In this document: positions 10,100-55,000 of the stretch, piece after piece | Position numbering within the stretch: position 1 is the first letter of the stretch | Layout of the letters: every line of letters begins with the position of its first letter | Origin: a virus | Virus record (IMG/VR): IMGVR_UViG_3300025889_000085 | Coordinates: 1 to 64,000 of that record | Length of the DNA stretch: 64,000 nt | Reading direction: 5' to 3' (one strand) | Notes under the pieces: model-generated | Database searches by the model: none | Seen by the model: only the letters and a program-made list of their open reading frames with translations | What the model was told of the DNA's origin: nothing | Program-made: the position numbers and the translations under genes

Positions 10100-10459
10100 T
10101 TAAGACATTTCCTCGAATGAACATACTGCCTGTAAATCACCATCGGCACTGGCGGTGCATCTTAGTGCATCACCTTCAAGTAAATAAATTGTGCCAGTTT
10201 TGTCAATTGCATTAAATGCACTGTCTGCTGCTACCGCTACTGTTTTCACTATATGATATGCAGTACTACTGCGATATAAATCCACAGTGATATCAGCTGA
10301 ACTTGTGCCATCTATGTTTGAGATAATCAAACTGTTAATTTTGTAAATCTTTCCACTGTCAGCAGCGTTTTCAACTATAGCGGTGGCGCTTGTTGTACAA
10401 CTCTGTACTGTAGTGTTGCCATTTACTGTTGTTAGACCTAAGATATTAGGTGTAGCCAT
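10100..10459 (-). CDS. Small virion protein of the fibre operon (119 aa)
   Basis: A 119-residue protein of alternating beta-type sequence (TTVNGNTTVQSCTTSATAIV ... KINSLIISNIDGTSS ... VDLYRSSTAYHIV). It has no transmembrane segment or catalytic motif. Its ATG overlaps the stop codon of the giant fibre gene (TAATG) and its stop is one base from the LamG adhesin start, so it is translated within a tightly coupled fibre operon. The pattern resembles small decoration or adaptor proteins of phage virions that display one beta-sandwich, but I do not recognise a named family. An adaptor joining fibre subunits is a guess from position. Confidence 0.6.
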   Translation of the reverse strand: MATPNILGLTTVNGNTTVQSCTTSATAIVENAADSGKIYKINSLIISNIDGTSSADITVDLYRSSTAYHIVKTVAVAADSAFNAIDKTGTIYLLEGDALRCTASADGDLQAVCSFEEMS

Positions 10460-13400
10460 TATAAACCTCCAAATAATATTGAGAATGCAAACGCTGTACT
10501 TGTAACTGATCCAGTTTCGTTACCTGCGTTGGCAAAAGCGTTTGCATCAATGTTACCTCCAGTACTAGCAACTGTTACAACTCCACCTGCAGGACTAACC
10601 ACAATACCACTGGGGTTTGGATTAGCTTCTGTTGGTTGCGGCATCAGTGCAATAGCACCAGTGCTGGCGTCTGTACTTATAGTTGCTCCGCCAAGATTAA
10701 TTGTATTTCCTGACAGGAACAAATCACGCCATTGGTAACTTGCACTACCTAAGTCGTAAGTTACATTTGCAGCAGGAATAATGCTTTGAGCAACTGCACT
10801 TAAATCAACATTGCCTCCACTGCCGCTGCCGTTGCTAAACGAAAGTTCTGCCTGCATTTCAGCCCACTGACTGCTGTCACCATCATTGAAGTAGATGTAC
10901 TGTATAGCACTGTCACTGTCAATCCATATGTCACCCTGACTTGGGCTACTTGGTGCGGTATTGCTTACTGTTGTAGTGCCGCCGCCACCACCTGAACTAT
11001 AAGGATCGCCATTGCTCCAGAAAACTCCATCTCCAGCAATAATGTAACTGTTAGCAGTTACGTTAGCAGTTACTCCTAGCGTTGTTCCAATTGTAGCACT
11101 GTTATTAATGGTTATTGCATTTACCGTACTGTTACCACTTGTATCTAAAGTGGCGCCGATTAGTGCCGCGCTGGCATTACCAATAGTAGCAGCATTTACA
11201 GTTGTACCAGTTAATGTTCCACTTAGTGTTAAACCAGTAAGTGTACCTACTGACGTAATGTTAGTTTGGGCAGCAGTGTCAAGAGTTCCTGTTAGTGTAG
11301 CACCGCTATTTCCTATCTGTGCTGCTTCAACAGTTGTACCTGTCAATGTACCACTTAAAGTGAGTCCAGTTAGCGTACCCACTGATGTAATGTTGGTTTG
11401 AGCAGCAGTGTCAAGAGTTCCTGTTAAAGTTGCTCCACTATTGCCTATCTGTGCTGCTTCTACGGTAGTTCCAGTTAGTGTTCCTGACAGGGTTAGCGAA
11501 GTTAATGTGCCAACACTGGTAATATTTGCCTGTGTGGCATTTGTTACGTACTCAGCAGTTCCTGCCGTTGTTGCAGTTCCTGCACTGCCAGTGCTGTCTG
11601 CATAAGTTGCATTGGCTACCGTTCCAGTTACATTAGCGCCTGTTAAACTAGTTAATTGACTACCGTCGCCTATTATGCTTGCACCAGAATTGCCAATAGT
11701 AGCAGCTTCTAGTGTTGTGCCGGTTAATGTGCCGCTTAGTGTCAATCCAGTTAGTGTACCTACTGATGTAATGTTGGTTTGAGCAGCAGTTTGTAAAGTA
11801 CCTGTTAACGAAGCGCCAGTATTACCAATCTGTGCGGCTTCTACAGTTGTTCCAGTTAATGTACCACTTAGTGTAAGTCCTGTTAGTGTACCGACACTAG
11901 TAATATTAGTTTGTGCGGCTGTGTCTAATGTACCAGTTAGTGTAGCACCACTATTTCCTATTTGTGCAGCATTTACTGTGGTTCCAGTAAATGTGTCTGA
12001 CAGGAATAAGTTGCTTGTATGTGCGCCGTCTGCTGCAACTACAAAAACGTTTTGAATGCCACTTACACTGGTATTAACGTTACCACTACCCTCAACAACT
12101 ACATTACTTGTTCCGTTAGTGATTGAAGATCCTGCTTCAACAGTAATACCTTCAATAAATCTACCGTTACCAAACAAGTAACTTCCGCTGGTAATGTTAC
12201 CTGTAGTTCCTAACTGAACTGCCGTTACATCGCCTGTTAATGTTATTCCACTACCAGCAATATTGCCTGTAACGCCTAATGTGCTTCCAATTGTAGTGGT
12301 ACTGTTTACAGTTAGTTCATTTACCGTAGCGTTACCGCTGGTGTCTAATGTTGCACCAATTAGTGCTGCACTAGCGTTACCGATAGTAGCAGCATTAACA
12401 GTAGTACCAGTTAGTGTACCACTTAGAGTCAATCCAGTTAGTGTACCAACACTGGTAATATTAGTTTGGGCTGCTGTACTTAATGTACCTGTTAGTGTTG
12501 CTCCACTGTTACCAATTTGAGCAGCTTCTACCGTCGTACCAGTTAGTGTACCACTTAATGTTAGTCCAGTTAATGTGCCTACTGATGTAATATTGGTTTG
12601 TGCAGCAGTTTGCAATACACCAGTAATACTTGGTGCTTGGATAGCATTGAAATATCCAGTATCCCAGTAATTACTAGTTCCGCCTAAACTTAAACTTGCA
12701 TTACCCGCAGGTGTTATACCTACATTTGAACGCCAACTGGTAGTAGCATGATTATATACCCAAGTAGCAATACCCTCGCCGCCTACATTACCTGCTAGTA
12801 TACCAGCGCCGTCAATACCAGCACTCGTTGTTTGGTTATTAGCAACAACTATATCTAAGTCATTGGTGCTGACAACATTACTGTCGATGTAAGTTACATT
12901 ACCAGTAACTTGCAGGTTACCTTCAATTACTACCAATCCGCCGCTGCCGGCAGTACTTGGATCGATTGTAATTACACTATGTGTGCTGGTAATACTATTG
13001 CTACCTATTGTAATTTCGCCAATAGTTACAGAATCGGCTAAGGAGTTAATGTTAGGCTGTGCTGCGGTGCTAAGTGTACCTGTTAGAGTAGCATCGGTAT
13101 TACCTATCTGTGCTGCTTCAACAGTTGTACCGGTTAGTGTGCCACTCAAAGTTAAGCCAGTTAATGTACCAACACTAGTAATATTCGTTTGTGCGGCAGT
13201 TTGTAATGTGCCTGTTAACTGTGATCCACTATTACCGATAGTTGCTGCTTCAATAGCAGTACCAGTTAATGTACCACTTAAAGTTAATCCAGTTAGTGTT
13301 CCAACTGATGTAATATTAGTTTGAGCGGCAGTGCTTAATGTACCTGTTAATGTAGCACCACTATTTCCTATTTGTGCAGCCTCTACTGTGGTACCTGTCA

Positions 13401-16400
13401 ATGTACCGCTTAATGTTAATCCAGTTAGTGTTCCAACTGAGGTAATATTGGTTTGACTTGCAGTCTGTAACGTGCCAGTTAATGTTGCTCCTGTGTTACC
13501 AATGCTAGCGGCTTCAATTGCAGTACCAGTTAATGTTCCTGACAAAGTTAGCCCGGTTAGTGTGCCAACGCTTGTAATATTAGTTTGACTTGCAGTTTGT
13601 AATGTACCTGTAATTGTTGTACCTACGTTGCCAACACTGGCTGCGTTGATATTTGTGCCGTCTAGGTTACCGCTTAGTGTTAATCCTGTTAGTGTACCTA
13701 CTGATGTAATATTAGTTTGTGCAGCAGTATCTAGTGTACCAGTTAATGTTGCACCACTATTACCAATCTGTGCTGCTTCTACCGTAGTGCCTGTTAAAGT
13801 GCCACTTAGTGTCAGTCCAGTTAGTGTACCTACCGATGTGATGTTGGTTTGGGCAGCAGTGCTTAACGTACCTGTTAAAGTTGCACCTGAGTTACCTATC
13901 TGTGCTGCTTCAACAGTTGTACCTGTCAATGTACCACTTAAAGTGAGTCCGGTTAGTGTACCAACACTAGTAATATTAGTTTGTGCCGATGTTTGTAATG
14001 TGCCAGTTAGTTGCGATCCCGAATTACCAATGGTGGCTGCTGTAATGGCTGTGCCAGTTAGCGTACCGCTCAAAATTAAACTAGTTAGCGTACCAACTTC
14101 TGTAATGTTTGTTTGGCTAGCAGTATCTAATGTACCAGTTAATGTTGCTCCACTATTACCAATCTGAGATGCGTTAAGAGTTGTTCCTGTTAATCCACCA
14201 CTTAATGTTAAGCCAGTAAGAGTTCCAACTGCGGTAATGTTACTCTGAGTCGCATTTGTTACATATTCAGCAGTGCCTGCAGTATTAGCAAAATTAACAC
14301 TTAAACCACTTAGGTTACTTAATTGGCTACCATCTCCCAAGAAGTAAGTAGCAGTTACATTTCCACCAGCATGGATGTTACCTCCAACGCCAATACCACT
14401 GTTACCTTGTAGTACTAAAGCACCTGTGCTTACACTGGTACTGCGTGTTCCATCAACGTTGGCGCCACCTGGATCACTACTACCAATCAGTACCAAGTTA
14501 CCAGTTTTAATATTTCCATAAACAGCAGTACTGTGATTGATGACGTTAGCATCGTCTCCTGCACCACTACCATACCATTCTAAATTCTGTTCGTCATTAC
14601 TCCAAATTAACGCAGCATTGTCGTCTTGCGTTTTGTAGTAGTGCATTCTGAAGCCAATGTCTCTACCATCATCTTCAGTTAATGGAGTTAAGTTGGCATC
14701 AGTGTGCATTTCAATCAAGTTGTCTGTGACAGCAAGATTATTTGCACCGATAATATTAGTATTGCCTTCAACTGTTAAGTTGCCTGCGATTGTTGTATCC
14801 TGGCTAATAAGAACTGTACCGCCAATATGTACATCTTTGGCAATACCAACGCCACCTGCGACTACCAATGCTCCGTTGGTTGTAGCGGTTGCCTGTGTTG
14901 TGTCTGTAATTGTTGTAACACCAGTTACACCTAGTGTCGAACCAACTGTAGCACTGTTGTTTACAGACAATGCATTAACTGTGGCATTACCTGTGGCACT
15001 TAGTGTGCTTACAATAGCAGTATTGCCGCCGCCGGAACCCAATGCGCCATTTAAATTTGTGCCATTAATTGTAGTAATTGTTGCACTGGCGCCAGTAAAT
15101 GCAGCACCAATGTTACCAATTATGGCTGCTTGTACTGTAGTTCCGTTTAATGTACCACTTAAGGTTAAGCCAGTTAGTGTTCCAACTTCTGTAATATTTG
15201 TTTGGCTAGCAGTTTGTAATGTACCAGTTAACTGAGATCCGCTATTACCAATAGTTGCAGATTCTACGCTAGTACCAGTTAGTGTGCCACTTAGTGTTAG
15301 CCCAGTTAGTGTTCCTAGTGAGGTTATGTTTGTCTGCGCCGCAGTACTCAGCGTACCTGTCAAGGTAGCACCAGTGTTACCAATAGTAGCAGCACTTACA
15401 GTTGTACCTGTTAATGCACCACTTAGTGTCAATCCGGTTAGCGTACCAACCGATGTTATATTTGTTTGAGAAGCGGTGTCTAATGTACCGGTTAATGTAG
15501 CACCACTATTACCAATTTGAGCTGCTTCTACTGTAGTACCAGTTAGTGTTCCTGATAATGTTAAGCCAGTTAGTGTACCAACAGATGTGATATTTGTCTG
15601 GGCCGCGGTGCTCAATGTTCCTGTTAGTGTAGCACCTGAGTTACCAATAGTTGCTGCTTCTACTGCGGTACCTGTTAATGTGCCACTTAGTGTTAGTCCA
15701 GTTAAAGTGCCTACGCTAGTAATATTTGTTTGTGCAGCAGTTTGTAAAGTACCTGTTAAAGTACTACCAGTAATGGCTGCACCACTGTTACCAATTATGG
15801 CTGCATTAATCGTCGTACCTGTTAGTGTACCGCTTAATGTCAATCCAGTTAGTGTACCTACTGATGTGATGTTGGTTTGTGCAGCGGTATTCAAAGTACC
15901 AGTTAGTGTGGCGCCCGAATTACCTATTTGAGCTGCTTCTACAGTGGTTCCAGTTAGTGTACCACTTAGTGTAAGTCCGGTTAAAGTACCAACTGATGTA
16001 ATGTTTGTCTGCGCCGCAGTGCTCAATGTACCTGTTAGTGTAGCACCACTGTTACCAATAGTGGCTGCGCTGACTGTTGTTCCTGTTAATCCACCGCTTA
16101 ATGTTAAGCCAGTTAGTGTACCAACTGCTGTAATGTTACTCTGTGTAGCATTTGTTACATATTCAGCTGTTCCTGCGGTATTGGCATAATTTACGCTTAG
16201 GTCTGATAGTCCATCTAATTGGCTTCCATTACCAAAGAAGTAATTGGCAGTGACATTACCACCAACTTGCAACACATCAAAGTATCCTGTTGACCAATAA
16301 TTATTGGTTCCACCAAAACTTAACGCTGCATTACCTAGTGGAGTTATACCAACGTTGCTTTGCCAACTAGTAGTTGCATGATTATATGTCCAGGTTGCTA

Positions 16401-19400
16401 TTCCTTCACCACCCACATTACCTGCTAATATACCAGCGCCATCAATATCTGCACTAGTTGATCTATTATTTGCAACAACAATGTCTAAGTCATTGGTGCT
16501 GACAATATTGCTGTCAATGTAAGTTACGTTACCTGTAACCTGCAAGTTGCCTTCAATTACTACCAATCCACCACTTCCAGCAGTGCTTGGATCAATAGTA
16601 ATTACACTGTGTGTACTTGTGATACTGTTGCTGCCAATAGTTATTTCACCTATTGTTACCGCATCCGCAAGTTCGTTGATATTTGGCTGAGCAGCGGTGC
16701 TTACCGTGCCTGTTAGTGTTGCACCTGAGTTACCAATTGTAGCAGCATTTATAGTTGTACCAGTAAGTGTATCACTTAGTGTTAAACCAGTTAGTGTTCC
16801 AACACTAGTGATATTAGTCTGTGCAGCAGTGCTTAACGTACCTGTTAGCGTAGCACCTGAGTTACCAATAGTTGCTGCTTCCACTGCGGTACCGGTTAGT
16901 GTACCACTTAAAGTTAGTCCTGTTAGTGTTCCAACTGATGTAATATTAGTTTGAGCAGCAGTATCTAAAGTGCCTGTCAGGGTAGCGCCCGAATTACCTA
17001 TTTGTGCTGCTTCTACTGTGGTACCTGTTAATGTACCACTTAGTGTAAGTCCAGTTAGTGTTCCTAGTGAGGTTACATTTGGCTGGCTTACAGTGGATAA
17101 CGTTCCTGTTAGTGTAGTATTTGTATTACCAATGGTAGCAGCATTAATAGCAGTACCGGTTAGTGTACCACTTAAAGTTAGTCCAGTTAGTGTGCCTACT
17201 GATGTGATATTAGTTTGAGCAGCAGTATCTAAAGTTCCTGTTAACGTAGCACCACTGTTACCAATTTGAGCAGCTTCTAAAGTAGTACCGGTTAACGTAT
17301 CACTAAGTGTTAATCCTATTAGTGTACCGACTGCTGTAATGTTGCTCTGTGTAGCATTTGTTACGTACTCAGCAGTTCCTGCAGTGTTAGCATAATTAAC
17401 ACTTAGTTCTGTTAATCCACCTAATTGACTACCATTACCAAAAAAGTAACTGGCAGATATATTTCCAGTTGAATCAACATTACCAGCAATTATATTTCCG
17501 GTAACATCTAATGTTGTACCAATTGTAGCACTATTGTTGATTGTAATATCATTTACAGTGGCATTTGCAGTGCTTTCAACTGTTGCGCCAAATATAGTAC
17601 TACCTGTGTTACCGATTGTTGCGGCATTAACAGTTGTTCCTGTTAACGCACCACTTAGTGTCAAACCGGTTAGTGTACCAACACTGGTAATATTTGCTTG
17701 TGCTGCTTCTGTTACATACCCGGCAGTACCTGCTGTGTTTGCTGTATTACTGTTACCTGCTTCAAGAGAATATGTGGCGTTAGCAACTGTTCCTGTAACA
17801 TTTGCGCCAGTTAAACTGGTTAAAGCACTACCATCACCAATTAATGTGGCACCAGTATTACCAATTGTAGCAGCATTAATGTCAGTGCCAGTTAGTGTAC
17901 CACTTAGTGTAAGTCCGGTTAGTGTTCCTACTGACGTAATGTTAGTCTGGTTTGCTGTTTGAAGTACACCTGTGACGCTTGGTGCTTCAATTGCATTAAA
18001 GTAACCTGTACTCCAGTAGTTACTGGTGCCACCGAGGCTTAAACTGGCGTTACCAACCGGAGTTACTCCGACGTTACTTTGCCAACTTGTGGTAGCATGA
18101 TTGTATATCCAGGTTGCAACTCCTGCTCCACCCACATTACCTGCTAGTATACCAGCACCATCAATACCAGCACTCGTTGTTTGGTTATTAGCAACAATAA
18201 TGTCTTTGTCGTTGATAATTATAGTTCCACTATCAACATAAGTTACGTTACCTGTGACTTGTAAGTTTCCTTCAATTACAACTAATCCATTTTGACCTGC
18301 ACTTGCGGGATCAATTGTAATTACGCTATGTGTGCTTACAATACTATTGCTGCCAATTGTGATCTCACCAATAGTTACTTCGTCAGCAAGTTGATTAATA
18401 TTTGTCTGTGCTGGAGTATTGATTGTTCCAGTTAATGTAGCGCCTGAATTACCAATCTGCGCTGCTTGTACAGTTGTTCCGTTTAACGTGCCTGATAATG
18501 TTAATCCAGTCAGTGTACCAACTTGCGTTATATTTGTTTGAGCAGCGGTATCTAACGTACCAGTTAAGATTGCGCCTGTGTTACCAATTTGCGCTGCTTC
18601 TACTGTGGTGCCAGTCAATGTTCCTGACAGGGTGGCGCCAGTCAATACACCAACACTGGTAATATTTGCCTGTGCTGCTTCGCTGACGTATTGTGCAACA
18701 CCTGCTGTATTGGCAAAACTTACACTAACTCCTCCTAGTCCATCTAATAATGCACCATTACCTAAAAAATAACTAGCAGACACATTGCCAGTAACACCTA
18801 AATCAGTACCAATTGTAGCACTGTTGTTTATTGTTAACGCATTAATAGTTGCATTAGAAGTGGTGTTTAAAGTAGCGCCCGTGAATGCAGCGCCGGTGTT
18901 ACCAATGGTTGCTGCTTGTACAGTTGGGGCATTCAGTGTGCCGCTTAAATTTAATCCTGTTAGAGTGCCAACTGAGGTAATATTTGGTTGTGCTGCTGTT
19001 TGAATAGTTCCAGTTAGTGCAGCACCTGCATTACCAATAATGGCTGCACGAATAGTAGTGCCGTCTAATATACCACTTAATGTCAGTCCAGTTAGTATAC
19101 CAACACTGGTTATATTTGGTTGACTAGCAGTCTGTATAGTGCCAGTCAATGTACTACCAGTAATTGCTGCACCACTATTTCCAATTGTGGCAGCGTTTAT
19201 GGTTGTACCAGTTAGTGTGCCACTTAGTGTTAGTCCGGTTAGTGTACCAACACTGGTAATGTTAGTTTGACTGGCTGTCTGAATTGTACCAGTTAGGGTT
19301 GCACCTGTGTTACCAATTTGAGCAGCATTAACAGTAGTGCCTGTCAGAGTTCCGCTCAATGTCAGTCCAGTTAGTGTACCAACACTGGTTATATTTGTCT

Positions 19401-21591
19401 GTTGTGGTGTTTGTAGTACACCAGTAATACTTGGTGCTTCGATGGCGTTAAAGTAGCCTGTACTCCAATAATTATTTGTACCACCAAAACTTAGTGCAGC
19501 ATTACCTTGAGGTGTTATCCCTACATTTGAGCGCCAACTGGTAGTAGCATGATTATATACCCAAGTTGCGATACCTTGACCACCAACATTACCTGCTAAT
19601 ATACCTGCGCCGTCTATGTCTGCACTAGTTGTTCTATTATTAGCGACAATAATGTCTAAATCATTTGTACTTACAACATTACTATCAATGTAAGTTACAT
19701 TACCAGTTACTCGTAAATTACCTTCAATTACAACTAGGCCGCCACTGCCTTCTGTGCTAGGATCAATTGTGATAGTGTCATGTGTGCTGGTAATACTGTT
19801 ACTACCAATTGTAATCTCACCAATTGTAACTGCGTTTGCTAATTCATTTACGTTGGGTTGACTGGCAGTTTCTAATGTGCCAACTAAATTTGTGGCTTCG
19901 ACATTACCTGCAATAATATTTCCAGTAACGCCTAATGTTGTTCCCACTGTTGCACTAGTGTTAACAGTTAATCCATTTACTGTGGCATTTGCACTTGTAT
20001 CTAGCGTTTCGCCGACTAGTTGTGTAGCAGCATTACCAACAGTAGCAGCATTAACAACCGTTCCTGTAATAGCACCACTTAGAGTCAAACCAGTTAGTGT
20101 ACCAACACTAGTTATATTTGTTTGTGCTGCAGTGTCTAGTGTACCTGTTAATGTAGCACCACTATTACCAATTTGTGCTGCTTCTACTGTAGTGCCAGTT
20201 AGTGTACCACTTAATGTCAGACTGGTCAATGTGCCAACACTGGTAATGTTTGCCTGTGTAGCATTGGTTACGAACTCGGCAGTACCCGCAGTGTTTGCAA
20301 AGTTTACACTTAATTCTGTAAGTCCGTCTAATTGGCTACCATTACCAAAGAAATAACTGGCTGTAACATTGCCTGCGGTATCTACATTACCAGGTGTAAT
20401 GTTTCCAACAACTTCTAAACCTAAGGAAGAAAAAGTTGCTATCGATTCACCGTTAACTGAAATTAAAATATTTCCGTCACTAGCAGGAATGTCAACATTA
20501 GAAGTGCCATTTTGAATTCTATATGTTGTTGCATCTTCAGATCCTTGAATAACAAATGCACCACCTTCAGCAGTTGTAATAATCACTGCGGTATTGTTGG
20601 CACTAATTGATGCACCATCTAAGTTAATAGTACTTCCACTTAAGAATAAATCTTTAAATCTAAAATCTGAACTTCCCAAATTGTAAGTAACGTTGGCGCT
20701 TGGGATAATGTTGCCAATAAATTCTGTTGCACTAATACTGTTTGCAGTTATACCGTCGACACTGTCAAGGTTACCACTATACGTTGGCAAATAACTGGCT
20801 ACGTTTGCGTTTGAATAAGAAGCAGGCAGTCCTTCGAGTTGACTACCATTACCAATAAAATAAGCAGCAGTAACATTAGCAGTAGTAATTACATTACCAG
20901 CCAAACTATCTAAATTACCTGTGTATGTAGGCAAGTAATTAGCAACATTGGCATTGCCATATGTAATTTCACCTAAACCAGTTAGTTGACTACCATTACC
21001 AATAAAGTAGGCTGCACTAACATTACCAGTAGCAATAACATCTGTGCTAACGATGACATTACCAGCACCTATATTGCCTGTATAAGTTGGCAAGTAGCTA
21101 GCAACGTTTGCATTGCTGTAATTACCACTTACTACTACACCATTGACTGTGAGAGTTCCATTATCTACAGAAATATTTGTGCCGCGCAAAGTTACATTAT
21201 TGCTGAGATAAAGTTCTGCCCATTCTTTAGAAATACTACCGAGTGTATAAGTTGCTGTAGTCTGAGGTAGTACATCAGACTTAATGCTAGTCAAATCTGC
21301 TTGAATGTTACTAAAAACACTTTGACCGTTAGGATAAAAATATCCCGCCCCAATAATATTGCCAATAGTGCTTAAATTTCCAAAACCATTGATATTACCA
21401 ACTCGTAAATTGCCAGTAGTATAAAAATAATTTGCAGTAATTGTATTACCGGTTAAATTTGTCGTACTGTTGCTACCAATAATTGTGTATAACTCTGTAA
21501 AGTTACTGTTTGTTTTGGTAAATGCGGTATAGAGTGAATCACCAGAGTTACTATCTGGACCATCACCTAAGTCAATGATTTCTTGCGCCAT
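10459..21591 (-). CDS. Giant repeat tail fibre / adhesin (3710 aa)
   Basis: One uninterrupted 11.1-kb gene. The N-terminus (MAQEIIDLGDGPDSNSGDSL, then YTAFTKTNSNFTELY) is of the kind that anchors phage fibres to the baseplate. After about 450 residues come roughly forty copies of a 44-residue repeat (TNITSVGTLTGLTLSGTLTG / TTVEAAQIGNSGATLTGTL), interrupted by four copies of a module of about 150 residues starting VTIGEITIGSNSI and containing YNHATTSW and NNYWSTGYF. One further module carries DDGRDIGFRMHYYKTQDDN and LEWYGSG, shared with the fibre gene at the right edge. The C-terminal part repeats the GDGVFWSNGDPYSSGGGG element of the 898-aa fibre and ends near VTYDLGSASYQWRDLFLSG. I infer a very long trimeric beta-structured fibre for host attachment. 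It is preceded by an AATAAATA late promoter and a CGGAT ribosome stretch. Confidence 0.82.
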   Translation of the reverse strand: MAQEIIDLGDGPDSNSGDSLYTAFTKTNSNFTELYTIIGSNSTTNLTGNTITANYFYTTGNLRVGNINGFGNLSTIGNIIGAGYFYPNGQSVFSNIQADLTSIKSDVLPQTTATYTLGSISKEWAELYLSNNVTLRGTNISVDNGTLTVNGVVVSGNYSNANVASYLPTYTGNIGAGNVIVSTDVIATGNVSAAYFIGNGSQLTGLGEITYGNANVANYLPTYTGNLDSLAGNVITTANVTAAYFIGNGSQLEGLPASYSNANVASYLPTYSGNLDSVDGITANSISATEFIGNIIPSANVTYNLGSSDFRFKDLFLSGSTINLDGASISANNTAVIITTAEGGAFVIQGSEDATTYRIQNGTSNVDIPASDGNILISVNGESIATFSSLGLEVVGNITPGNVDTAGNVTASYFFGNGSQLDGLTELSVNFANTAGTAEFVTNATQANITSVGTLTSLTLSGTLTGTTVEAAQIGNSGATLTGTLDTAAQTNITSVGTLTGLTLSGAITGTVVNAATVGNAATQLVGETLDTSANATVNGLTVNTSATVGTTLGVTGNIIAGNVEATNLVGTLETASQPNVNELANAVTIGEITIGSNSITSTHDTITIDPSTEGSGGLVVIEGNLRVTGNVTYIDSNVVSTNDLDIIVANNRTTSADIDGAGILAGNVGGQGIATWVYNHATTSWRSNVGITPQGNAALSFGGTNNYWSTGYFNAIEAPSITGVLQTPQQTNITSVGTLTGLTLSGTLTGTTVNAAQIGNTGATLTGTIQTASQTNITSVGTLTGLTLSGTLTGTTINAATIGNSGAAITGSTLTGTIQTASQPNITSVGILTGLTLSGILDGTTIRAAIIGNAGAALTGTIQTAAQPNITSVGTLTGLNLSGTLNAPTVQAATIGNTGAAFTGATLNTTSNATINALTINNSATIGTDLGVTGNVSASYFLGNGALLDGLGGVSVSFANTAGVAQYVSEAAQANITSVGVLTGATLSGTLTGTTVEAAQIGNTGAILTGTLDTAAQTNITQVGTLTGLTLSGTLNGTTVQAAQIGNSGATLTGTINTPAQTNINQLADEVTIGEITIGSNSIVSTHSVITIDPASAGQNGLVVIEGNLQVTGNVTYVDSGTIIINDKDIIVANNQTTSAGIDGAGILAGNVGGAGVATWIYNHATTSWQSNVGVTPVGNASLSLGGTSNYWSTGYFNAIEAPSVTGVLQTANQTNITSVGTLTGLTLSGTLTGTDINAATIGNTGATLIGDGSALTSLTGANVTGTVANATYSLEAGNSNTANTAGTAGYVTEAAQANITSVGTLTGLTLSGALTGTTVNAATIGNTGSTIFGATVESTANATVNDITINNSATIGTTLDVTGNIIAGNVDSTGNISASYFFGNGSQLGGLTELSVNYANTAGTAEYVTNATQSNITAVGTLIGLTLSDTLTGTTLEAAQIGNSGATLTGTLDTAAQTNITSVGTLTGLTLSGTLTGTAINAATIGNTNTTLTGTLSTVSQPNVTSLGTLTGLTLSGTLTGTTVEAAQIGNSGATLTGTLDTAAQTNITSVGTLTGLTLSGTLTGTAVEAATIGNSGATLTGTLSTAAQTNITSVGTLTGLTLSDTLTGTTINAATIGNSGATLTGTVSTAAQPNINELADAVTIGEITIGSNSITSTHSVITIDPSTAGSGGLVVIEGNLQVTGNVTYIDSNIVSTNDLDIVVANNRSTSADIDGAGILAGNVGGEGIATWTYNHATTSWQSNVGITPLGNAALSFGGTNNYWSTGYFDVLQVGGNVTANYFFGNGSQLDGLSDLSVNYANTAGTAEYVTNATQSNITAVGTLTGLTLSGGLTGTTVSAATIGNSGATLTGTLSTAAQTNITSVGTLTGLTLSGTLTGTTVEAAQIGNSGATLTGTLNTAAQTNITSVGTLTGLTLSGTLTGTTINAAIIGNSGAAITGSTLTGTLQTAAQTNITSVGTLTGLTLSGTLTGTAVEAATIGNSGATLTGTLSTAAQTNITSVGTLTGLTLSGTLTGTTVEAAQIGNSGATLTGTLDTASQTNITSVGTLTGLTLSGALTGTTVSAATIGNTGATLTGTLSTAAQTNITSLGTLTGLTLSGTLTGTSVESATIGNSGSQLTGTLQTASQTNITEVGTLTGLTLSGTLNGTTVQAAIIGNIGAAFTGASATITTINGTNLNGALGSGGGNTAIVSTLSATGNATVNALSVNNSATVGSTLGVTGVTTITDTTQATATTNGALVVAGGVGIAKDVHIGGTVLISQDTTIAGNLTVEGNTNIIGANNLAVTDNLIEMHTDANLTPLTEDDGRDIGFRMHYYKTQDDNAALIWSNDEQNLEWYGSGAGDDANVINHSTAVYGNIKTGNLVLIGSSDPGGANVDGTRSTSVSTGALVLQGNSGIGVGGNIHAGGNVTATYFLGDGSQLSNLSGLSVNFANTAGTAEYVTNATQSNITAVGTLTGLTLSGGLTGTTLNASQIGNSGATLTGTLDTASQTNITEVGTLTSLILSGTLTGTAITAATIGNSGSQLTGTLQTSAQTNITSVGTLTGLTLSGTLTGTTVEAAQIGNSGATLTGTLSTAAQTNITSVGTLTGLTLSGTLTGTTVEAAQIGNSGATLTGTLDTAAQTNITSVGTLTGLTLSGNLDGTNINAASVGNVGTTITGTLQTASQTNITSVGTLTGLTLSGTLTGTAIEAASIGNTGATLTGTLQTASQTNITSVGTLTGLTLSGTLTGTTVEAAQIGNSGATLTGTLSTAAQTNITSVGTLTGLTLSGTLTGTAIEAATIGNSGSQLTGTLQTAAQTNITSVGTLTGLTLSGTLTGTTVEAAQIGNTDATLTGTLSTAAQPNINSLADSVTIGEITIGSNSITSTHSVITIDPSTAGSGGLVVIEGNLQVTGNVTYIDSNVVSTNDLDIVVANNQTTSAGIDGAGILAGNVGGEGIATWVYNHATTSWRSNVGITPAGNASLSLGGTSNYWDTGYFNAIQAPSITGVLQTAAQTNITSVGTLTGLTLSGTLTGTTVEAAQIGNSGATLTGTLSTAAQTNITSVGTLTGLTLSGTLTGTTVNAATIGNASAALIGATLDTSGNATVNELTVNSTTTIGSTLGVTGNIAGSGITLTGDVTAVQLGTTGNITSGSYLFGNGRFIEGITVEAGSSITNGTSNVVVEGSGNVNTSVSGIQNVFVVAADGAHTSNLFLSDTFTGTTVNAAQIGNSGATLTGTLDTAAQTNITSVGTLTGLTLSGTLTGTTVEAAQIGNTGASLTGTLQTAAQTNITSVGTLTGLTLSGTLTGTTLEAATIGNSGASIIGDGSQLTSLTGANVTGTVANATYADSTGSAGTATTAGTAEYVTNATQANITSVGTLTSLTLSGTLTGTTVEAAQIGNSGATLTGTLDTAAQTNITSVGTLTGLTLSGTLTGTTVEAAQIGNSGATLTGTLDTAAQTNITSVGTLTGLTLSGTLTGTTVNAATIGNASAALIGATLDTSGNSTVNAITINNSATIGTTLGVTANVTANSYIIAGDGVFWSNGDPYSSGGGGGTTTVSNTAPSSPSQGDIWIDSDSAIQYIYFNDGDSSQWAEMQAELSFSNGSGSGGNVDLSAVAQSIIPAANVTYDLGSASYQWRDLFLSGNTINLGGATISTDASTGAIALMPQPTEANPNPSGIVVSPAGGVVTVASTGGNIDANAFANAGNETGSVTSTAFAFSILFGGL
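11150..20250 (-). repeat. Long array of 132-bp coding repeats with four interspersed larger modules
   Basis: About forty copies of a 132-bp unit lie within the giant fibre gene. Adjacent copies are in exact register (for example units beginning near 11257 and 11389). Larger repeated modules (VTIGEITIGSNSI type) sit near 12610-13060, 16260-16690, 17950-18410 and 19410-19860; a fifth copy is in the 898-aa fibre near 5385-5840. Boundaries are approximate. The array offers abundant targets for homologous recombination within and between the two fibre genes. Confidence 0.75.
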
Positions 21592-21701: not shown

Positions 21702-22112
21702 TTAAGCAACTGGAACTGCAACTGTTGCAGGTGTTGTTCCGCTGTCTGCACTGGTACCAACCAAGAATTTGTCATCTGTTTGATTCCAAACAAACTTGTT
21801 AGTAATTCTGCTGGCGTAGAATGTAGCTGCGTTAGCATATGTACATTCAATACTCATTGTGTTGGCAGTTAAGTTACCACTGTCAGTATTTGCCAAAGAG
21901 CATACACCTTCGTTTCCTGCTAGGTCATTAACTAAAAACTTAGTAGCTCCTTTTTTGCGTACAATGTATCCTGTAGCAGCACTGTTACCGCCTACTTTAA
22001 CTTCAGGACTAATTTGATTGCCTGTAATGCTGGTATTACCACCAACTTGAGCTGTTCCTACTGGATAACCAATATCAACTGTTGCACTTTTTGCTGTCTT
22101 AAATTTTGCCAT
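21702..22112 (-). CDS. Small structural protein (136 aa), possibly capsid-associated
   Basis: A 136-residue protein starting MAKFKTAKSATVDIGYPVGT, rich in Gly, Thr, Ala and Asn, with RKKGATKFLVNDLAG and a patch around TNKFVWNQTDDKFL. There is no membrane segment and no enzyme motif. It has a strong AAGGAG ribosome site, a late promoter about 70 nt upstream and its own terminator, so it is a free-standing late gene, as expected for an abundant virion protein. It is one gene away from the capsid gene 23, which makes a head decoration or head-fibre protein plausible, but I do not recognise the family and a fibre-operon role is equally possible. Confidence 0.6.
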   Translation of the reverse strand: MAKFKTAKSATVDIGYPVGTAQVGGNTSITGNQISPEVKVGGNSAATGYIVRKKGATKFLVNDLAGNEGVCSLANTDSGNLTANTMSIECTYANAATFYASRITNKFVWNQTDDKFLVGTSADSGTTPATVAVPVA

Positions 22113-22181: not shown

Positions 22182-22189
22182 TATTTACC
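22182..22189 (-). promoter_or_regulatory. Late promoter for the 136-aa structural gene
   Basis: GGTAAATA on the minus strand, 69 nt before the ATG at 22112. The leader includes the hairpin CGGAG/CTCCG (about 22148-22162) and the palindrome GTTCATGTGAAC (22165-22176), unusual for the otherwise short leaders of this phage. Confidence 0.45.
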
Positions 22190-22196
22190 GTAAACA

Positions 22197-22225
22197 TTGA
22201 CTATTTGGGCTATACCCAGTATTAT
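22197..22225 (+). promoter_or_regulatory. sigma70-like promoter of the kinase gene, with an inverted repeat in the spacer
   Basis: TTGACT (22197-22202) and TATTAT (22220-22225) are 17 bp apart. The start site would fall near 22232, only about four bases before the kinase ATG. Between the two boxes lies the inverted repeat TGGGCTATACCCA (22206-22218), well placed to be an operator. This promoter differs from the late TAAATA type of both flanking gene blocks. Confidence 0.6.
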
Positions 22226-22235
22226 TAAATAAAAT

Positions 22236-23054
22236 ATGAAAATATTAAGTGTCGGTCACGTCTGCACAGACTTAGTTTACTACAGTAATACCATACCTAA
22301 CATAAACAACAAAATAGGTTGTGAGCGTGCAGAGATCATTCTCGGTGGTAACGCTGCCAATGTGGGCCGTGCCCTAACTGAATTAGGTGCAGAAGTTGAA
22401 CTTTGTACTGTGCTGGGCAACCAACAACATGCATATTCAAAAATTATAATTGAACTGTTAAATGAATATGGCATCAATCACGATTATGTAAAATACAAAG
22501 AAGATCTAGCAACACCAAGTAGCATTATTATTGTAAACGACAAAGGCGAACGCACAGTTGTCTATCATCAAAGTGAAGAAATAAAACGCAAAATAAGTTT
22601 GCCCACAGACTACGACTTTGATTTAATTACCGCAGACAATCACAGAATGCCCATGGTCAATGAAATATTTTCTGCAGCACGTTTAAACAACATACCCACA
22701 ATGCTGGACATTGACGCACCAATAGAAACGTTAGAATCATACCCCAAGGCAGACTACGTTTGGTTAAGTTATGAAACTTATGCTTTGTGCAACCTCAGCA
22801 TCTACGATTTGCAGCGACAGTTTGGAGGCTTGGTAGGATATACTAACAGTGAGGATGAAATTTGTTGGTTAGAAAACGGCGAAGTAAAAACTTGCCAGCC
22901 AGAAACTATACAGGCCCTTAATACGTTAGGCGCGGGTGATGTGTTTAGAGCACAGTTTGCAGTATCAATTTGTAATGGGTTATCTGTTGAAGAGGCTGTA
23001 AAAGCAAGTTGTCACACCGCAGCATTACACTGTCAACAGTTACCAATTGCATAG
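22236..23054 (+). CDS. PfkB-family (ribokinase-like) sugar kinase
   Basis: A 272-residue kinase of the PfkB/ribokinase family, which transfers phosphate from ATP to a sugar or nucleoside hydroxyl. Visible marks are the N-terminal GGNAANVGRALTELGA (37-52), which shapes the substrate pocket, and the C-terminal NTLGAGDVFRAQF (229-241), which carries the anion hole and the catalytic base Asp235. The family usually has Asp-Thr before this GAGD; here it is Asn229-Thr230. The length is slightly below the usual 300 or so. The substrate cannot be assigned. It sits alone on the plus strand between two minus-strand late structural blocks, with its own sigma70-like promoter and a strong terminator, the layout of a moron or auxiliary metabolic gene. 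No Shine-Dalgarno is visible before the ATG, which lies nearly at the predicted start of the mRNA. Confidence 0.9.
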   Translation: MKILSVGHVCTDLVYYSNTIPNINNKIGCERAEIILGGNAANVGRALTELGAEVELCTVLGNQQHAYSKIIIELLNEYGINHDYVKYKEDLATPSSIIIVNDKGERTVVYHQSEEIKRKISLPTDYDFDLITADNHRMPMVNEIFSAARLNNIPTMLDIDAPIETLESYPKADYVWLSYETYALCNLSIYDLQRQFGGLVGYTNSEDEICWLENGEVKTCQPETIQALNTLGAGDVFRAQFAVSICNGLSVEEAVKASCHTAALHCQQLPIA

Positions 23055-23060
23055 CCAACA

Positions 23061-23084
23061 AAAAAGGACCTTTCGGTCCTTTTT
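23061..23084. terminator. Bidirectional rho-independent terminator between the kinase and gene 23
   Basis: AAAAAGGACC, loop TTTC, GGTCCTTTTT: a perfect 10-bp stem whose ends supply a T-tract on either strand. It can end the plus-strand kinase message and the minus-strand gene 23 message. Confidence 0.9.
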
Positions 23085-23115: not shown

Positions 23116-24300
23116 TTACTGGAAGCTTAGGTTGCTTACATTAATCTCACTTAGGTAGTCGCCTGCGTTACCTAGAGAAGATGCTGTGTTTGTCAACTCA
23201 ACATATCCATAACGAGTCATAAAGCCTACGACTGGTTCGAATGTTGCTGGGTCTAGAACAACACCACTGCTCATCAATGGAATGTATGGGCAGTAGAATG
23301 CTGCGGCATCAGCCTCGCTGGAACCTTTGTAACCAACTAGAACAGCAGTTGTGTCTGCTGCATAGCTGTCTACGTAGATACGCATTGCGCCGTTTAGTGT
23401 ACCAACAAACTTGGTGTTTGTAGGTGCTTCGAATGTACCTTCTGTGGTACGTGCGAAAGCAGAAGTTGTTGCGCTCTGTAGTACTGTTAGAGCGGCTGGA
23501 CTTACAACTGCCCAGTTACCTGCGCCGCGACGTGTACGCTGTGCAATCAAGTTTGCACTGCGGTTGATTAGAACAGCTAGAGCAGCGTGTTCGTCACCAA
23601 CGAATGTAGCGGTACCAGATACTGTTGCCTGGTTGTATGTGAAGTCAGTAGCGGCTAGCGCACGTAGACTACCTAGAACTTCTTGGTCGATTTCAACGGT
23701 AATCTCTTGTGCTAGAGCAGCCATGATTTCTGCTTCAACGTCAAGACCATGCATGCTTTGTGCATCTTGGGCAGCTTCAAATGTCCAACGTGCGCTTAGC
23801 TTACGTGTCTTGGCTTCTACAACCTGCTTCAAGATTTGAACGTTGATTTTACGTCCTGGGTTGCCTTCTAGTGCTGTTGTACTAGCAGCACGACCTGTAG
23901 ATAAACTACCGGAATATGCTGTGGCAATCTTAAATGGGCTCAGTGCTTCGTCACCAGCGGTTGTGCTTGTGTCGAATGGTGCAGGTGCTGTGCTTGTAGC
24001 AGTTTCAGCATAACGAACACGTAGAGTGTGGATCTGTGCAACAGGTCCTGTCATTGGTTGAACACCAACGATTTCGTTAGCAATAACTGTAGGCATAACA
24101 CGTCGAATTACTGGTAAAATTACACGGTTTAGTGTAGCAACGTTACCAGCAGCGGTTGCGCCTGCTGTAGCAGCTTCTGCCAAATGCTTGCGAGTGTTTT
24201 CTAGGATAACACCCATTGTGGTTCTCTTGGAACCTTGTAGACCTTCTAGCAGGGCATCTTTTGTTTCGCCCCAACGGCCTTCTAGTAGTGCTTGTGTCAT
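23116..24300 (-). CDS. 23: Major capsid protein gp23
   Basis: A 394-residue homologue of T4 gp23, the subunit of the head hexamers. The signature stretch LPVIRRVMPTVIANEIVGVQ followed by PMTGP and QIHTLRVRYA is characteristic of T4-like capsid proteins; VEAKTRKLSARWTFEAAQD, HGLDVEAEI and VGYKGSSEADAAAFYCPY also align. It is shorter than T4 gp23 (521 aa). A likely maturation site for the gp21 protease (L/I-x-E) is Leu40-Ala-Glu42 before AATAG, corresponding to T4 LTE/AEI. A CTTAAATA late promoter lies inside the end of gene 22 and a TAGGAG ribosome site precedes the ATG, fitting very high late expression. No gene 24 follows; the kinase moron takes that place. Confidence 0.97.
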   Translation of the reverse strand: MTQALLEGRWGETKDALLEGLQGSKRTTMGVILENTRKHLAEAATAGATAAGNVATLNRVILPVIRRVMPTVIANEIVGVQPMTGPVAQIHTLRVRYAETATSTAPAPFDTSTTAGDEALSPFKIATAYSGSLSTGRAASTTALEGNPGRKINVQILKQVVEAKTRKLSARWTFEAAQDAQSMHGLDVEAEIMAALAQEITVEIDQEVLGSLRALAATDFTYNQATVSGTATFVGDEHAALAVLINRSANLIAQRTRRGAGNWAVVSPAALTVLQSATTSAFARTTEGTFEAPTNTKFVGTLNGAMRIYVDSYAADTTAVLVGYKGSSEADAAAFYCPYIPLMSSGVVLDPATFEPVVGFMTRYGYVELTNTASSLGNAGDYLSEINVSNLSFQ

Positions 24301-49010: not shown

Positions 49011-52000
49011 ATGGCAATAACTAAAACTTTACCTTTCCTTCCTAGTGTTTTCCAAACCGAGACTAACGATAAGTTTTTAAGCACTACCCTTGATCAGTTA
49101 GTGACGGAGCCAAATCTCGTTCCTATTAATGGATATGTTGGCAGAAAGTTTACACCAGGTTGGTCTGGAATAGAATCTTACGTAAGAGAACCAAGTGGGG
49201 TTAGAGCAGATTATCAACTTGAACCAACCACAGTTGTTAAAAATGCTGCAGATGCAGACTCTGTTGAATTTTATAACACTTATCCAGAATTGCTGCAAAA
49301 AATTCAAGAACTTGGGGGCAACGTTGCAGATCAAGATAGGTTATTTACTAGTCAATTTTATACATATGATCCTAAAATAGACTATGATAAGTTTGTAAAT
49401 TATAGTCAATATTATTGGTTACCTGCCGGCCCTGATTCTGTAACTGTAAGTGCTACTAATATTGCAACTTCAAGGACATATTACGTTTATCCTGAAGACA
49501 ACATTAATGTTTACCGATTTAGCAGCGAAAGCAATGTTGGCAATCCTGATATTATTGTTGTAAGAGAAGGAACGTATCAGTTTGTTGTAAATCAGCCCGG
49601 CAAAAAATTCTACATTCAAACAGAACCTGGTTTAAGCGGAAGACAAACAAATAATAATAATTTAAGTTCTAGAGAGATCGAAGGTGTTACTAACAACGGT
49701 GATGATGTTGGTACAATTACCTTTAATGTTCCTATAAGTACTGCCCAAGACAATTTCTTAAATGCAACAAATGTTGCAGATGTCGGGTTTGTAACAAATT
49801 TAAAATATAGCCAAATTGACCAACAACTGTTAAGCACAGTTGCTGCATTGGGTGGTATAGATGGTGTAACTGCGAACACATTACTCGATGGCCAAAGTTT
49901 AGTTTTTGGTACTTATTACAGCGACAGTGCAGATTGGGATAGCGGTAGCGGTCCTGTTAGTGCAGGACTACGCTATGGAGTTTGGGATATTACTTTAACA
50001 CCAAGTGGCGGAGATTACTTAATTAGTTTAAGTTCAGGAACTGCCATACCAACAGGTAATAAAGTTACAATTTTAAGTGGTCTAAATTATGGTAATACAG
50101 AATGGTACAAAAATACATCAGGTTATCTGAGTCAAGTTCCTGTTATTACTGCACCATTTGACACGTTGTATTATCAAGACAGTGAGGATGCAGAACAATA
50201 TGGTCGTATTCAGATCCTTAGTGCAGTAACAAAAACAATAGATGTTAATACAGATATTATTGGTAGAAAAAATTATATTAGTCCAAATAAAATTACTTTT
50301 ACTAACGGACTTAAAATTAAATTCGATAATACCGTAACACCTGAAGTTTACAGAAACAACGAATACTATGTAGAAGGAGTTGGCGATTCAATAACTCTTA
50401 CTCCGGTAGAATGGTTAAGTGTTTTTTATAGTTCTAGCCAAGAAAATTTTAGCCCAGTTGTTCGTTTTGTAGGTACTACAACTTATGCAAATTTAAATCA
50501 ATCGAGAACACAACTAAGCATCGAAAGTAATGTTGATCCTTATACTGCAAATATTTCAACAGATTATGCCAGTTCAGGAGAAAACCGAAACAACATTTTC
50601 TCCAGCAACTTAAGTTTTCAATTTCCTTACAGAGGTGGGTTTAATACTGTTGGAGATAACGCTGACAATTTATTTCGAACAGGGACAATAGGTATGTCTT
50701 TGGTAGGAATACCATTTTATGGTCCAACCAATGAAGCATATATAGAAGGTAAAAATGCAACTTCGTGGCACTACAATTCCCCATATGTTAAAATTAATGG
50801 ACAAGATACCTATGGTGGTTATCCTGATTCAAATGGCATTTACCACTACAACGACAGCACGTTCATTACTGCAAATGCTTGGGGAAATGTTGCTGGCCTG
50901 GGTAGCAATCTGTATGTGGAAACTGACGGGCATAGCACACTATTAGGGTATGCTATAGACGGATATCCCATATACGGACCTTACGGGTATTCCAATCCTA
51001 TGGATAAAGATAGCGGCGCAGTATTAATGGTAAGCAGTTATCAAGCAGATGATGGTGCTTCTTATAGGCCTTTATCTAAACTGGTTACTGTTACTGCTAA
51101 CAACACTTCTGGGTCTAATATAACACTAAATTCGACTTTTGAACTTGAGCCCGGCATGAGGCTTACATTTAGTTCTAATGCTAGTATAACAACCCCAGAC
51201 GAGTACTGGATTGTTGCTGCCGGCCAACAATCCAGCGTCGGCCTTCCAAATAATAATTTAGGATTAAATCAGATCCAATTAAACAAAGACCTAATAATTT
51301 ATGCAAATACAGACATACAATTTGGCTTTCCTTCTGGTTCATTCATTGAGGATTATACGTACCAAGAAGGATTGGGTTCATTAGATAGGTTTAATGGTAG
51401 ATATTGTGTAACGCCCGACTATCCCAACGGGACCTATGCATACTTCTCGACTCAAGACACAACGGGTGTACCCACATACCCTTATTTTGTCGGACAAAAT
51501 TTCTATGGTAGTTTGGATATTAGTGATATCAATCAATTGACTGAACCAGACTATATTACCATTGATAGATCGAGTAGGGACCAAAATCCGTGGAGTAGAC
51601 GCAACCGTTGGTTTCATAAAGAAGTTCTTGCACAAACAGCAAGTTATAACGGAACTTCATTGATTAGTTTAGACACTTATCAAAGAGCACAAAGACCTAT
51701 TGTTGAGTTTATTCCTAATTTACAGTTAACTAACTTTGGCAATCTTGCACTAATACCTGTTGATATTTTTGATACCACGATTACACAACCATTCAGTGCA
51801 GTAGAAGGGGTCACTGGTATTTTCTTAGACGGTGTCAGGATCGTCGATGGTATGCGTATTATTTTTGCCAACGACATTGATCCGTTAACACGAAACAGGA
51901 TTTATGTTGTACGCTATGTTGACCAAGACGGTATTCCTTCAACTGCTCCTATTTTAACACTAAAACTAATCGTAGCCTATGACGGCATCCCTGATCCAGG

Positions 52001-55000
52001 CGAAACTGTTAGTGTTCTGAATGGTGTTAGTAACGGTGGTAAAAGTTATTGGTTTAACGGTGGCCAGTGGGTAGAAGGTCAGGTAAAGACTGGACTTAAC
52101 GTTGCGCCTTTATTCGACATTTTTGACGAAGATGGTAATAGTTTCACTGATAGGGACATTTATCCGTCAGTGAATACTGCAACAACATTTGACGGAACAA
52201 AACTATTCAGTTATCGAGAAGGAACTGGTACAGATGACAGTGTTCTTGGGTTTCCTTTAAGTTACAGATCACTTAACAATCAAGGTGATATAGAATTTGT
52301 AAACAACTTTGATGTTGATACTTTTGGTTACACCACAGATGGTGTCACAGAAGTAATAAAAAATATTAGTTTAGGTTATATTCATCGGAACAATGTTGAT
52401 GGTACAACTACTAAATTAACATGTTGGAATACAGTAGTAGAAAACACTAAACAATATCAAATTTTTAGTTATGAATTTGATGGAATAAACAACGATTTTA
52501 GTTTTGATATTGCGCCAAGTCAAAACACTGCTATTCCTAACCTACAAGTTTTAGTAAACTTTAAAAATCTGCAACAAACACAATATCAGGTAGAAGTAAG
52601 GCCAAATAATCAAAGATCAATTTCTATCAATAATAATCTTTTAAAATCTGGAGATAAGATAGATATTAAAGTTTACAGTACCCAAGTGTCTTCGCTTGGT
52701 TATTTTCAAGTACCTGATAATTTAAATTTCAATGTACAGAACGAAGTAGTTTCTTACCCTACGTTAGGACAAATTAGAAACCATGTAGGAAAACTTGTAA
52801 GAAGTAGCACACAATTTATAGGCGGGTATCCGGGCACTAGCAACCTTCAAGATTTGAACTTGACAGCATATCCTGGGGAAATACTACAACAAAGTAGTCC
52901 TATTAGTTATGCCAGTATGTTCTTAGTTGACAAAGACTTCAATTTTGTCAATAGCATTTATAATGCACAACAAGAGTATACCAGATTTAAGAATAAGTTT
53001 TTAAGTATTGCGACCAGCACCAATCAAATTGACTATAACGATCCTGTTTCTGGTGTAAACTACATTCTGAAAGAAATTAACAAAGTAAAAAATGATACTT
53101 TTCCTTGGTTTTATAGTGATATGGTACCATATGGCGACAATGTTAATGTAATATCCTATACTGTTTTTGATCAATTACAAACCAACTATGAAATTACAAC
53201 AACATTTAGCCTAAGTACACTGAGTAACCAGGCTATACTTGTTTACTTAAATGGTGTTCAGTTACTCAATGGGTATGATTATACTTTCTTAGCATCAGGT
53301 CCTGGCATTGCTTTAAGTTCTAATCTTTCAAGAAGTGTCGGAGATACATTAAAAATATATGAATATAGAAATACAGACGGAAACTATATTCCAGAAACAC
53401 CAACTAAATTAGGCCTTTATCCAAAGTTTAAACCTGAACTAGTGGCAGATAGTACTTATAGAACACCTATCTATGTAATAGTTGGCCACGACGGCAGCAG
53501 AACCCCAGCATTTAATGATTTTAGAGATACCTATCTATTAGAATTAGAAAAAAGAATCTATAATAATATTAAACAGGAATACAACGAAGATCAACTAAGC
53601 ATCTACAACAGCATGCCTGGCAAGTTTAGAACTAATGATTATAGTTTAACAACTTACAATAGAATCATTAGTCGCAGTTTCCTGTATTGGGCAGGACAAA
53701 ATAAAGTAGACTATAGCACAAACACAACTTACAACTCGGAAGATCCATTTACTTGGAACTATAGGACGGCTAAAGACAGCGACGGAGTATTTTTGCCAGG
53801 CAGTTGGCGTGCTTGTTACGAGTATTTTTACGATACTGTCAGGCCACACACAAATCCGTGGGAAATGTTGGGATTCAGCGAACGTCCTGATTGGTGGGTA
53901 TCTACTTACGGTCCTGCACCTTATACCAGTGGCAACACAATACTATGGACAGACTTAAAGAACGGATACATTGCTGGTGGCAGTAGACAAGGATACGATA
54001 CAACGTTTGCAAGATCCACATTACTAAGCATTATACCGGTAGATGCCCAAGGAAATCTGCGTAGTCCTATTGAAATACTTACTAACAATTATGATATTTC
54101 CAATATGGATGAAAATTGGAGTGTAGGCAATTGGGGTCCTGGTGAGTATGCTTGGAGGACTAGTAGTGATTGGCCTTATGCTCAGCAGATAGTTATGGCA
54201 TTGACCAAGCCTGCCCAGTATTTCGCATTAGGGATTCAGAAAAACAAATATGTTTACAGTTCAGTAATCAATCAGTACACTGTAACTGACACAAATTATA
54301 GACTGACACCATCAGATGTAGATATAAACGGAGACCAAGATGCCGATGGCAGTATTATCCGTTCTGCCGGATATTTAAATTGGATAAACGATTATCAAGT
54401 CAGTAATGGAGTATTGACAAAAACAAAACTTAATAGGTACTTGCACGATTATAAAATAAATCTTGCTTACAGAATGGCTAGTTTTAGTGATAAGAAACTG
54501 CTAAAAGTTTTAGCGGATCAGAACAGTCCTAGTAGCGTGAATAGTTCAGTTATTATTCCAGATGAAGATTACGAATTAATTTTAGGTAAATCTACTCCTT
54601 TAAGTAAAATAAAATACAGTGCAGTAGTAATTAAGAAAGTAGCCACTGGATTTGAAATTAACGGATATGATAGATCAAATCCAGTGTTTAACATTGTTGC
54701 CCCAAATATTGATAACGAATCGGATGTTATAACTGTTCTTGACCGGCAAGTCCAATATTTTACTAAGTTTAGAAATTATCGATTGACGATCCCTTACGGT
54801 ACAGTTTTAACAACTATTCAAGACGTTGCTAATTTTATAGCAGGATATGAAAGATTCTTACTATTGCAAGGATTCTCATTTGACTACTTTGATGAAGATC
54901 TGGGACAAATAAGAAATTGGCAATTAAGTACAAAAGAATTTATATTTTGGACTCAACAAGGCTGGCCTGTAAATTCTGTAATAGTTTTAAGTCCATTTGC

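Follow-up and report, generated by a model that had tools for sequence, protein, structure and literature searches.

The sugar kinase gene described here, a member of the PfkB family, is a piece of cargo lying directly behind the major capsid gene gp23 of a T4-like myovirus, and the terminator behind it is that of the capsid gene. We propose that its product is a ketose-type sugar kinase which would serve phage-encoded carbohydrate modification, and that the gene entered the slot behind gp23 together with a sigma70-type promoter. To this reading as a whole we give about an even chance. The window, by which we mean the whole stretch of 64,000 nucleotides that was analysed, is part of a virus record of 98,369 bases.

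The gp23 of this virus shares 66-69% identity with its counterparts in three jumbo phages (Vibrio phage 2.275.O, Sinorhizobium phage Phosso and Pseudomonas phage PA5oct), and the portal, prohead protease and capsid genes stand in T4-like order on the minus strand. The kinase ORF (P0001; 22236-23054, 272 aa) is on the plus strand and has minus-strand late genes with TAAATA boxes on both sides, as the first-pass annotation had described. One flank of the slot is gp23 itself (23116-24300, minus strand; PF07068, 1.7e-97); the other is a 136-aa virion-type gene (21702-22112, minus strand), whose family is found after gp23 in relatives and whose TAAATA late promoter (22182-22187, minus strand) is conserved at the same place there. 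Two giant ORFs lie elsewhere in the window, one of 3710 aa at 10459-21591 and one of 4473 aa at 49011-62432. Many diverged repeats are found in the first of them, both internally and in common with an upstream 898-aa gene. When all loci were compared with the window by blastn, internal repeats of the giant genes swamped the signal; the flanks were collinear.

Assignment of the ORF to the PfkB family, also made in the first-pass annotation, holds over its full length: residues 2-268 match Pfam PF00294 with E=4.1e-27 and 95.8 bits against a gathering cut-off of 25.8. An AlphaFold (AF2) model, for which the kinase and 58 aligned relatives were supplied, has a pLDDT of 93.8 and a pTM of 0.91. The structure-based comparison earlier proposed as a check revealed a ribokinase fold with lid strands, Foldseek against the PDB returning YihV, the sulfofructose kinase of E. 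coli (1.5e-23), then human ketohexokinase (KHK, 7e-22) and then ribokinases. A library of viral predicted structures gave one partial ribokinase-like match only (TM 0.59). YihV (E. coli/Salmonella, PDB 7ag6) is the best match in sequence as well (1.4e-18), with the same domain layout and the GAGDVF motif; however, the two proteins are 29% identical, the pocket reads GGP in YihV and GGNAAN in the phage kinase, and the latter is devoid of the C-terminal loop and helix of YihV. KHK (PDB 3nbv/6ul7) resembles the phage kinase in its GGNxxN pocket signature, its early C-terminus and its aligned substrate residues, but identity over the structural alignment is about 22% and the clasp residue Asp27 of KHK corresponds to Asn24.

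The predicted catalytic base is D235 in the motif NTLGAGD, and D12, G38, N39, N42 and R106 are the predicted substrate-side residues. A phmmer alignment with KHK pairs them as D12/D15, G38/G41, N39/N42, N42/N45, R106/R108 and D235/D258, the roles of the KHK residues being ones that we take to be established. Equivalents of the residues by which KHK contacts fructose (D15, N42, N45 and D258) are thus present in the phage kinase as D12, N39, N42 and D235. Both the GAGD anion hole and the N-terminal GG signature are there; D235 and G38 are invariant in 59 aligned sequences, as are the GAGD motif and R106 among the aligned sequences. The substrate cannot be named from the sequence, because the kinase approaches no NCBIfam equivalog cut-off, the best being that of ribokinase (TIGR02152, 75.6 bits against 299.65). 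A defence system was ruled out, as PADLOC gave no match.

Several positions depart from the common family pattern. The first-pass annotation had called the family motif altered, since the kinase has NTLGAGD where the family has DTxGAGD. This turned out to be ordinary variation: N occurs in 6 of 59 aligned sequences, and at the equivalent positions E. coli Gsk has NT, PsuK NV and FruK/PfkB ST. Asn in place of Asp is accordingly no sign of decay. Two further departures are rarer. The nucleotide-binding turn TxGxxG is replaced by TNSEDE at residues 203-208, with S205 in place of Gly, and the first Gly position is held by Gly in 57 of 59 aligned sequences; a 41%-identical homologue reads TDGDRP. 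This turn is common in the PfkB family and not universal, and KHK deviates from it too. The C-terminal GA..P loop of ribokinase and YihV is absent, and FrlD and KHK likewise end early. In ribokinase, the Asp of DT and the C-terminal loop hold a monovalent cation. In the phage kinase the Asp of DTxxAGD is N229 and the loop is missing, and independence of K+ is therefore predicted.

A 96%-identical variant (L008, L011) allowed us to estimate selection. The two kinase genes are separated by 55 synonymous and 12 nonsynonymous changes, with a synonymous distance of 0.415 and a dN/dS of 0.045, compared with 0.19 for gp23 and 0.033 for the portal gene of the same contig. The kinase is under strong purifying selection. 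This value and the intact GAGD motif rule out an inactive relic. Its GC content is 39.8%, that of the window 39.5%.

Scans of viral contigs yielded ten near-identical copies of the kinase and one other lineage, the 41%-identical protein already mentioned. The latter is encoded in a phage genome of 452,799 bases (G010) and in a contig of 102,607 bases, of which the fetched 10.8 kb are identical to G010. The query and these homologues group as a clade (100/100) that has a long stem and appears to be confined to phages. The tree does not resolve its nearest cellular subfamily and places the clade outside the YihV group. Cellular matches reach at most about 30% identity among the matches listed in a profile scan, and 32% in one whole-genome search. 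No match at 1e-24 other than a known seed was found among the matches listed for about 750 genomes of two bacterial classes, and a genome scan with the kinase protein gave none. Recent capture from a sequenced host was ruled out, as the genome scan, the profile scan and these roughly 750 genomes contain no close cellular relative. Matches in a 'phages' collection were set aside, being Salmonella contigs or a 2.7-kb unannotated fragment; the clade was not found in the isolated phages searched. In G010, whose gp23 is 74% identical to the one here, the kinase does not occupy the same slot, as it lies about 120 kb from gp23.

To see what normally stands behind gp23, 80 relative loci were chosen by their related gp23 genes, and none of them contains the kinase. 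In these relatives, the stop codon of gp23 is followed by a terminator, a TTGTTGGCTA-like link, a TAAATA late promoter, a hairpin-bearing leader and the 136-aa family. Loci such as L035 and L028 are cargo-free and have nothing between gp23 and the gene of the 136-aa family. Counted by hand, about 23 of the 35 loci that reach from gp23 to this family hold extra genes in between, several of these genes being on the strand opposite to gp23. NUMOD3/HNH endonucleases are the commonest contents; a restriction-like nuclease, GDSL lipases, a fatty-acid desaturase, TPR-glycosyltransferases (TPR-GT9), a hexapeptide transferase and a porin were also found. We thus regard the interval between gp23 and the next virion gene as a hypervariable cargo hotspot, judged from compared gene orders, and the kinase as one of its contents. 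The porin, of the Gram-negative type (L067:7372-8361; Pfam Porin_4, 9.4e-31), would be an unusual gene for a phage to carry. The desaturase (L027:4267-5148; Pfam 5.7e-24) fills the slot in another relative. Homing-endonuclease-associated exchange sites with gene turnover have been described near capsid genes (PMC10448857). The gp23 slot is comparable to them in that nuclease genes adjoin an essential capsid gene and genes turn over, but here accessory genes including the kinase replace the nuclease, and no nuclease flanks the kinase copy.

Comparison of the junctions with cargo-free loci such as L035 and L028 places the inserted segment at about 22191-23051, good to a few bases. The earlier description of the kinase as a cargo gene is borne out by this insertion in a hypervariable slot and by its absence from the 80 relatives. 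It had also been called self-contained, and in this respect at most its candidate promoter qualifies. The sigma70-like promoter is within the inferred insert, whereas the bases at 23052-23054, which form the TAG stop codon, and those of the terminator fall in capsid flank that pre-existed and is common to kinase-less relatives. The perfect 10-bp hairpin AAAAAGGACC-TTTC-GGTCCTTTTT is indeed present at 23061-23084, but it is not the kinase's own. By strict criteria, 71 of 78 kinase-less relatives have a terminator no further than 120 nt from the stop of gp23, against 0.0 in shuffles, and a looser scan found one in 76 of the 78 loci. Because of this we assign the hairpin primarily to gp23, the kinase presumably using it as well. 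It is preceded by an A-run and followed by a T-run and should therefore terminate in both directions. The 'self-contained moron' of the first-pass annotation is better described as a cargo gene that borrows the terminator of the capsid gene.

Which pathway might employ the kinase is suggested by genes in its surroundings and in relatives. In G010, the kinase is directly followed by a radical SAM protein and putative lysis genes, probably an RlmN-like protein and a spanin/holin. At a distance of approximately 5-14 kb there are genes for two aldolases, one GatZ/KbaZ-like and one of class II, and for a radical SAM protein, a cupin, a carbamoyltransferase and an NTP_transferase-APH protein; most of this sugar block is encoded on the strand opposite to the kinase. 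Homologues of the G010 radical SAM protein (38%) and carbamoyltransferase (44%) are present at 67.5-88.6 kb of the contig studied here. Its interval 69.9-86.4 kb encodes a carbamoyltransferase, several related radical-SAM-type proteins and SGNH-like proteins, and these sugar-type genes are about 45-60 kb from the kinase. In G005, a further relative, there are genes for a kinase and a nucleotidyltransferase of the HldE type. PfkB kinases of jumbo phages are already known from sugar clusters: PfkB/HldE-type kinases of jumbo phages and cyanophages have been assigned to NDP-sugar clusters and interpreted as suppliers of phospho-sugars for the synthesis of NDP-sugars and glycans (PMC7824862). The HldE-like kinases found in relatives differ from the phage kinase, whose clade is separate (100/100).

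Some further features of these regions deserve a record of their own. Along 67548-88644 of the contig (G000; L094, L095) runs a long series of genes that all point in one direction. They encode several radical-SAM-type proteins, including one that has a B12-binding domain, as well as SGNH-like proteins, a carbamoyltransferase and an apparent dCMP deaminase, and several of them have homologues close to the G010 kinase. On the minus strand of L095 (13401-15920), a DUF2201 metallopeptidase/VWA protein adjoins a MoxR-like AAA ATPase, and this pair has a strong Shine-Dalgarno sequence and sigma70-like promoters. In G005 (L203:2511-4732) an HldE-type nucleotidyltransferase, an HldD-like epimerase and a PfkB domain, of which the match covers the C-terminal part only, make up a set that looks ADP-heptose-like.

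With respect to transcription, the sigma70-like promoter TTGACT/TATTAT with 17-bp spacing, described in the first-pass annotation, is present at 22197-22225 on the plus strand, and it is the best plus-strand match at this place. Across the region, promoter-like sites do not exceed the number expected from shuffles (22 against 24.2), but an equally good site appears in only 2.2% of shuffled versions of the 123-nt intergenic sequence. A similar promoter stands just after gp23, on the strand of gp23, in 14 of 78 kinase-less relatives against 3.2 expected, these 14 not being independent, as several carry related endonuclease genes. The case for the sigma70-like promoter is hence built on its position, on both hexamers being unchanged in the variant L008/L011 and on the similar promoters at the slot in relatives.

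A competing promoter, missed in the first-pass annotation, adjoins the -10 hexamer: a TAAATA core, in the form TTAAATAA, at 22226-22231 on the plus strand, 10 nt before the ATG of the kinase. If it were the functional one, the kinase would be a late gene whose product acts late, for example in virion modification, and the sigma70-like match would be incidental. The sequence TAAATA is depleted in the whole contig (70 found, 134 expected), yet it precedes many structural genes, and the TTAAATAA of the kinase resembles the box of gp23 and is unchanged in the 93% variant. Against this stand the distance to ATG, which is 22-34 nt for most late genes, and the bases around the core, as the kinase has T before and A after it where most sites have A/G and T/C. 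We consider late transcription unlikely and favor the sigma70-type promoter, from which the kinase would be expressed early. A few TAAATA sites in the contig are only 10-11 nt from ATG, which suggests near-leaderless late mRNAs. There is no Shine-Dalgarno sequence upstream of the kinase ATG, and because both candidate promoters sit right before it, the kinase mRNA would be almost leaderless in either case.

An early kinase could also divert sugar or nucleoside pools of the host, along the lines of the first-pass annotation, and a phage glycan pathway would then play no part. The sigma70-like promoter would fit this, several members of the PfkB family act in catabolism, among them YihV, the best match in fold, and the top NCBIfam model is that of ribokinase. 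However, no partner catabolic genes adjoin the kinase, genes of sugar-biosynthesis type cluster near its G010 homologue, and no close relative hinting at recent host capture is found among the matches listed for the two bacterial classes. We therefore rate an effect on host metabolism as rather improbable; the comparative context points to phage glycan or nucleotide-sugar chemistry instead. Very unlikely, in our view, is a protein that keeps the fold and the sugar pocket and has a nucleotide site degraded at the TxGxxG turn, the C-terminal loop and the monovalent-cation Asp, acting as a ligand binder or with another phosphate donor. S205, N229 and the missing loop would agree with such a protein, but GAGD, D235 and R106 are invariant, FrlD and KHK lack a long C-terminus too, and the low dN/dS argues for a working enzyme.

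The glycan-serving kinase that we prefer can be pictured as follows. A PfkB/ribokinase-fold enzyme of a phage-specific clade, presumably active and ATP-dependent, was inserted with its sigma70-type promoter as cargo between gp23 and the next virion gene. Its nearly leaderless transcript would run convergent to gp23 and end at the bidirectional terminator. The enzyme might phosphorylate a ketose-type sugar in its ketohexokinase/sulfofructokinase-like pocket, and the phospho-sugar would be supplied to phage glycan or nucleotide-sugar synthesis, not to degradation of host sugar. We infer the ketose substrate from this pocket, and the glycan pathway from the sugar genes in G010, in the present contig and in G005 together with the jumbo-phage precedent (PMC7824862). 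Against this picture weigh the ATP-side turn TNSEDE, the missing C-terminal loop, the distance of the NCBIfam scores from every equivalog cut-off, the immediate neighbours of the G010 kinase, which are no sugar enzymes, its strand, the 45-60 kb between the kinase and the sugar-type genes of the present contig, and the TAAATA core, which would permit late transcription. A more specific proposal, which we consider doubtful, is that the clade represents a new PfkB subfamily with a lost monovalent-cation site and a reshaped nucleotide site, making a ketose-1-phosphate which, in concert with aldolase, carbamoyltransferase and radical-SAM enzymes, would enter a phage pathway for a glycan or metabolite.

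Taken together, the kinase belongs to a hotspot, mapped here, where T4-like jumbo phages keep accessory genes behind the capsid gene. Should its link to glycans be true, it would offer a way into the sugar and radical-SAM islands of these phages, which are so far uncharacterised.
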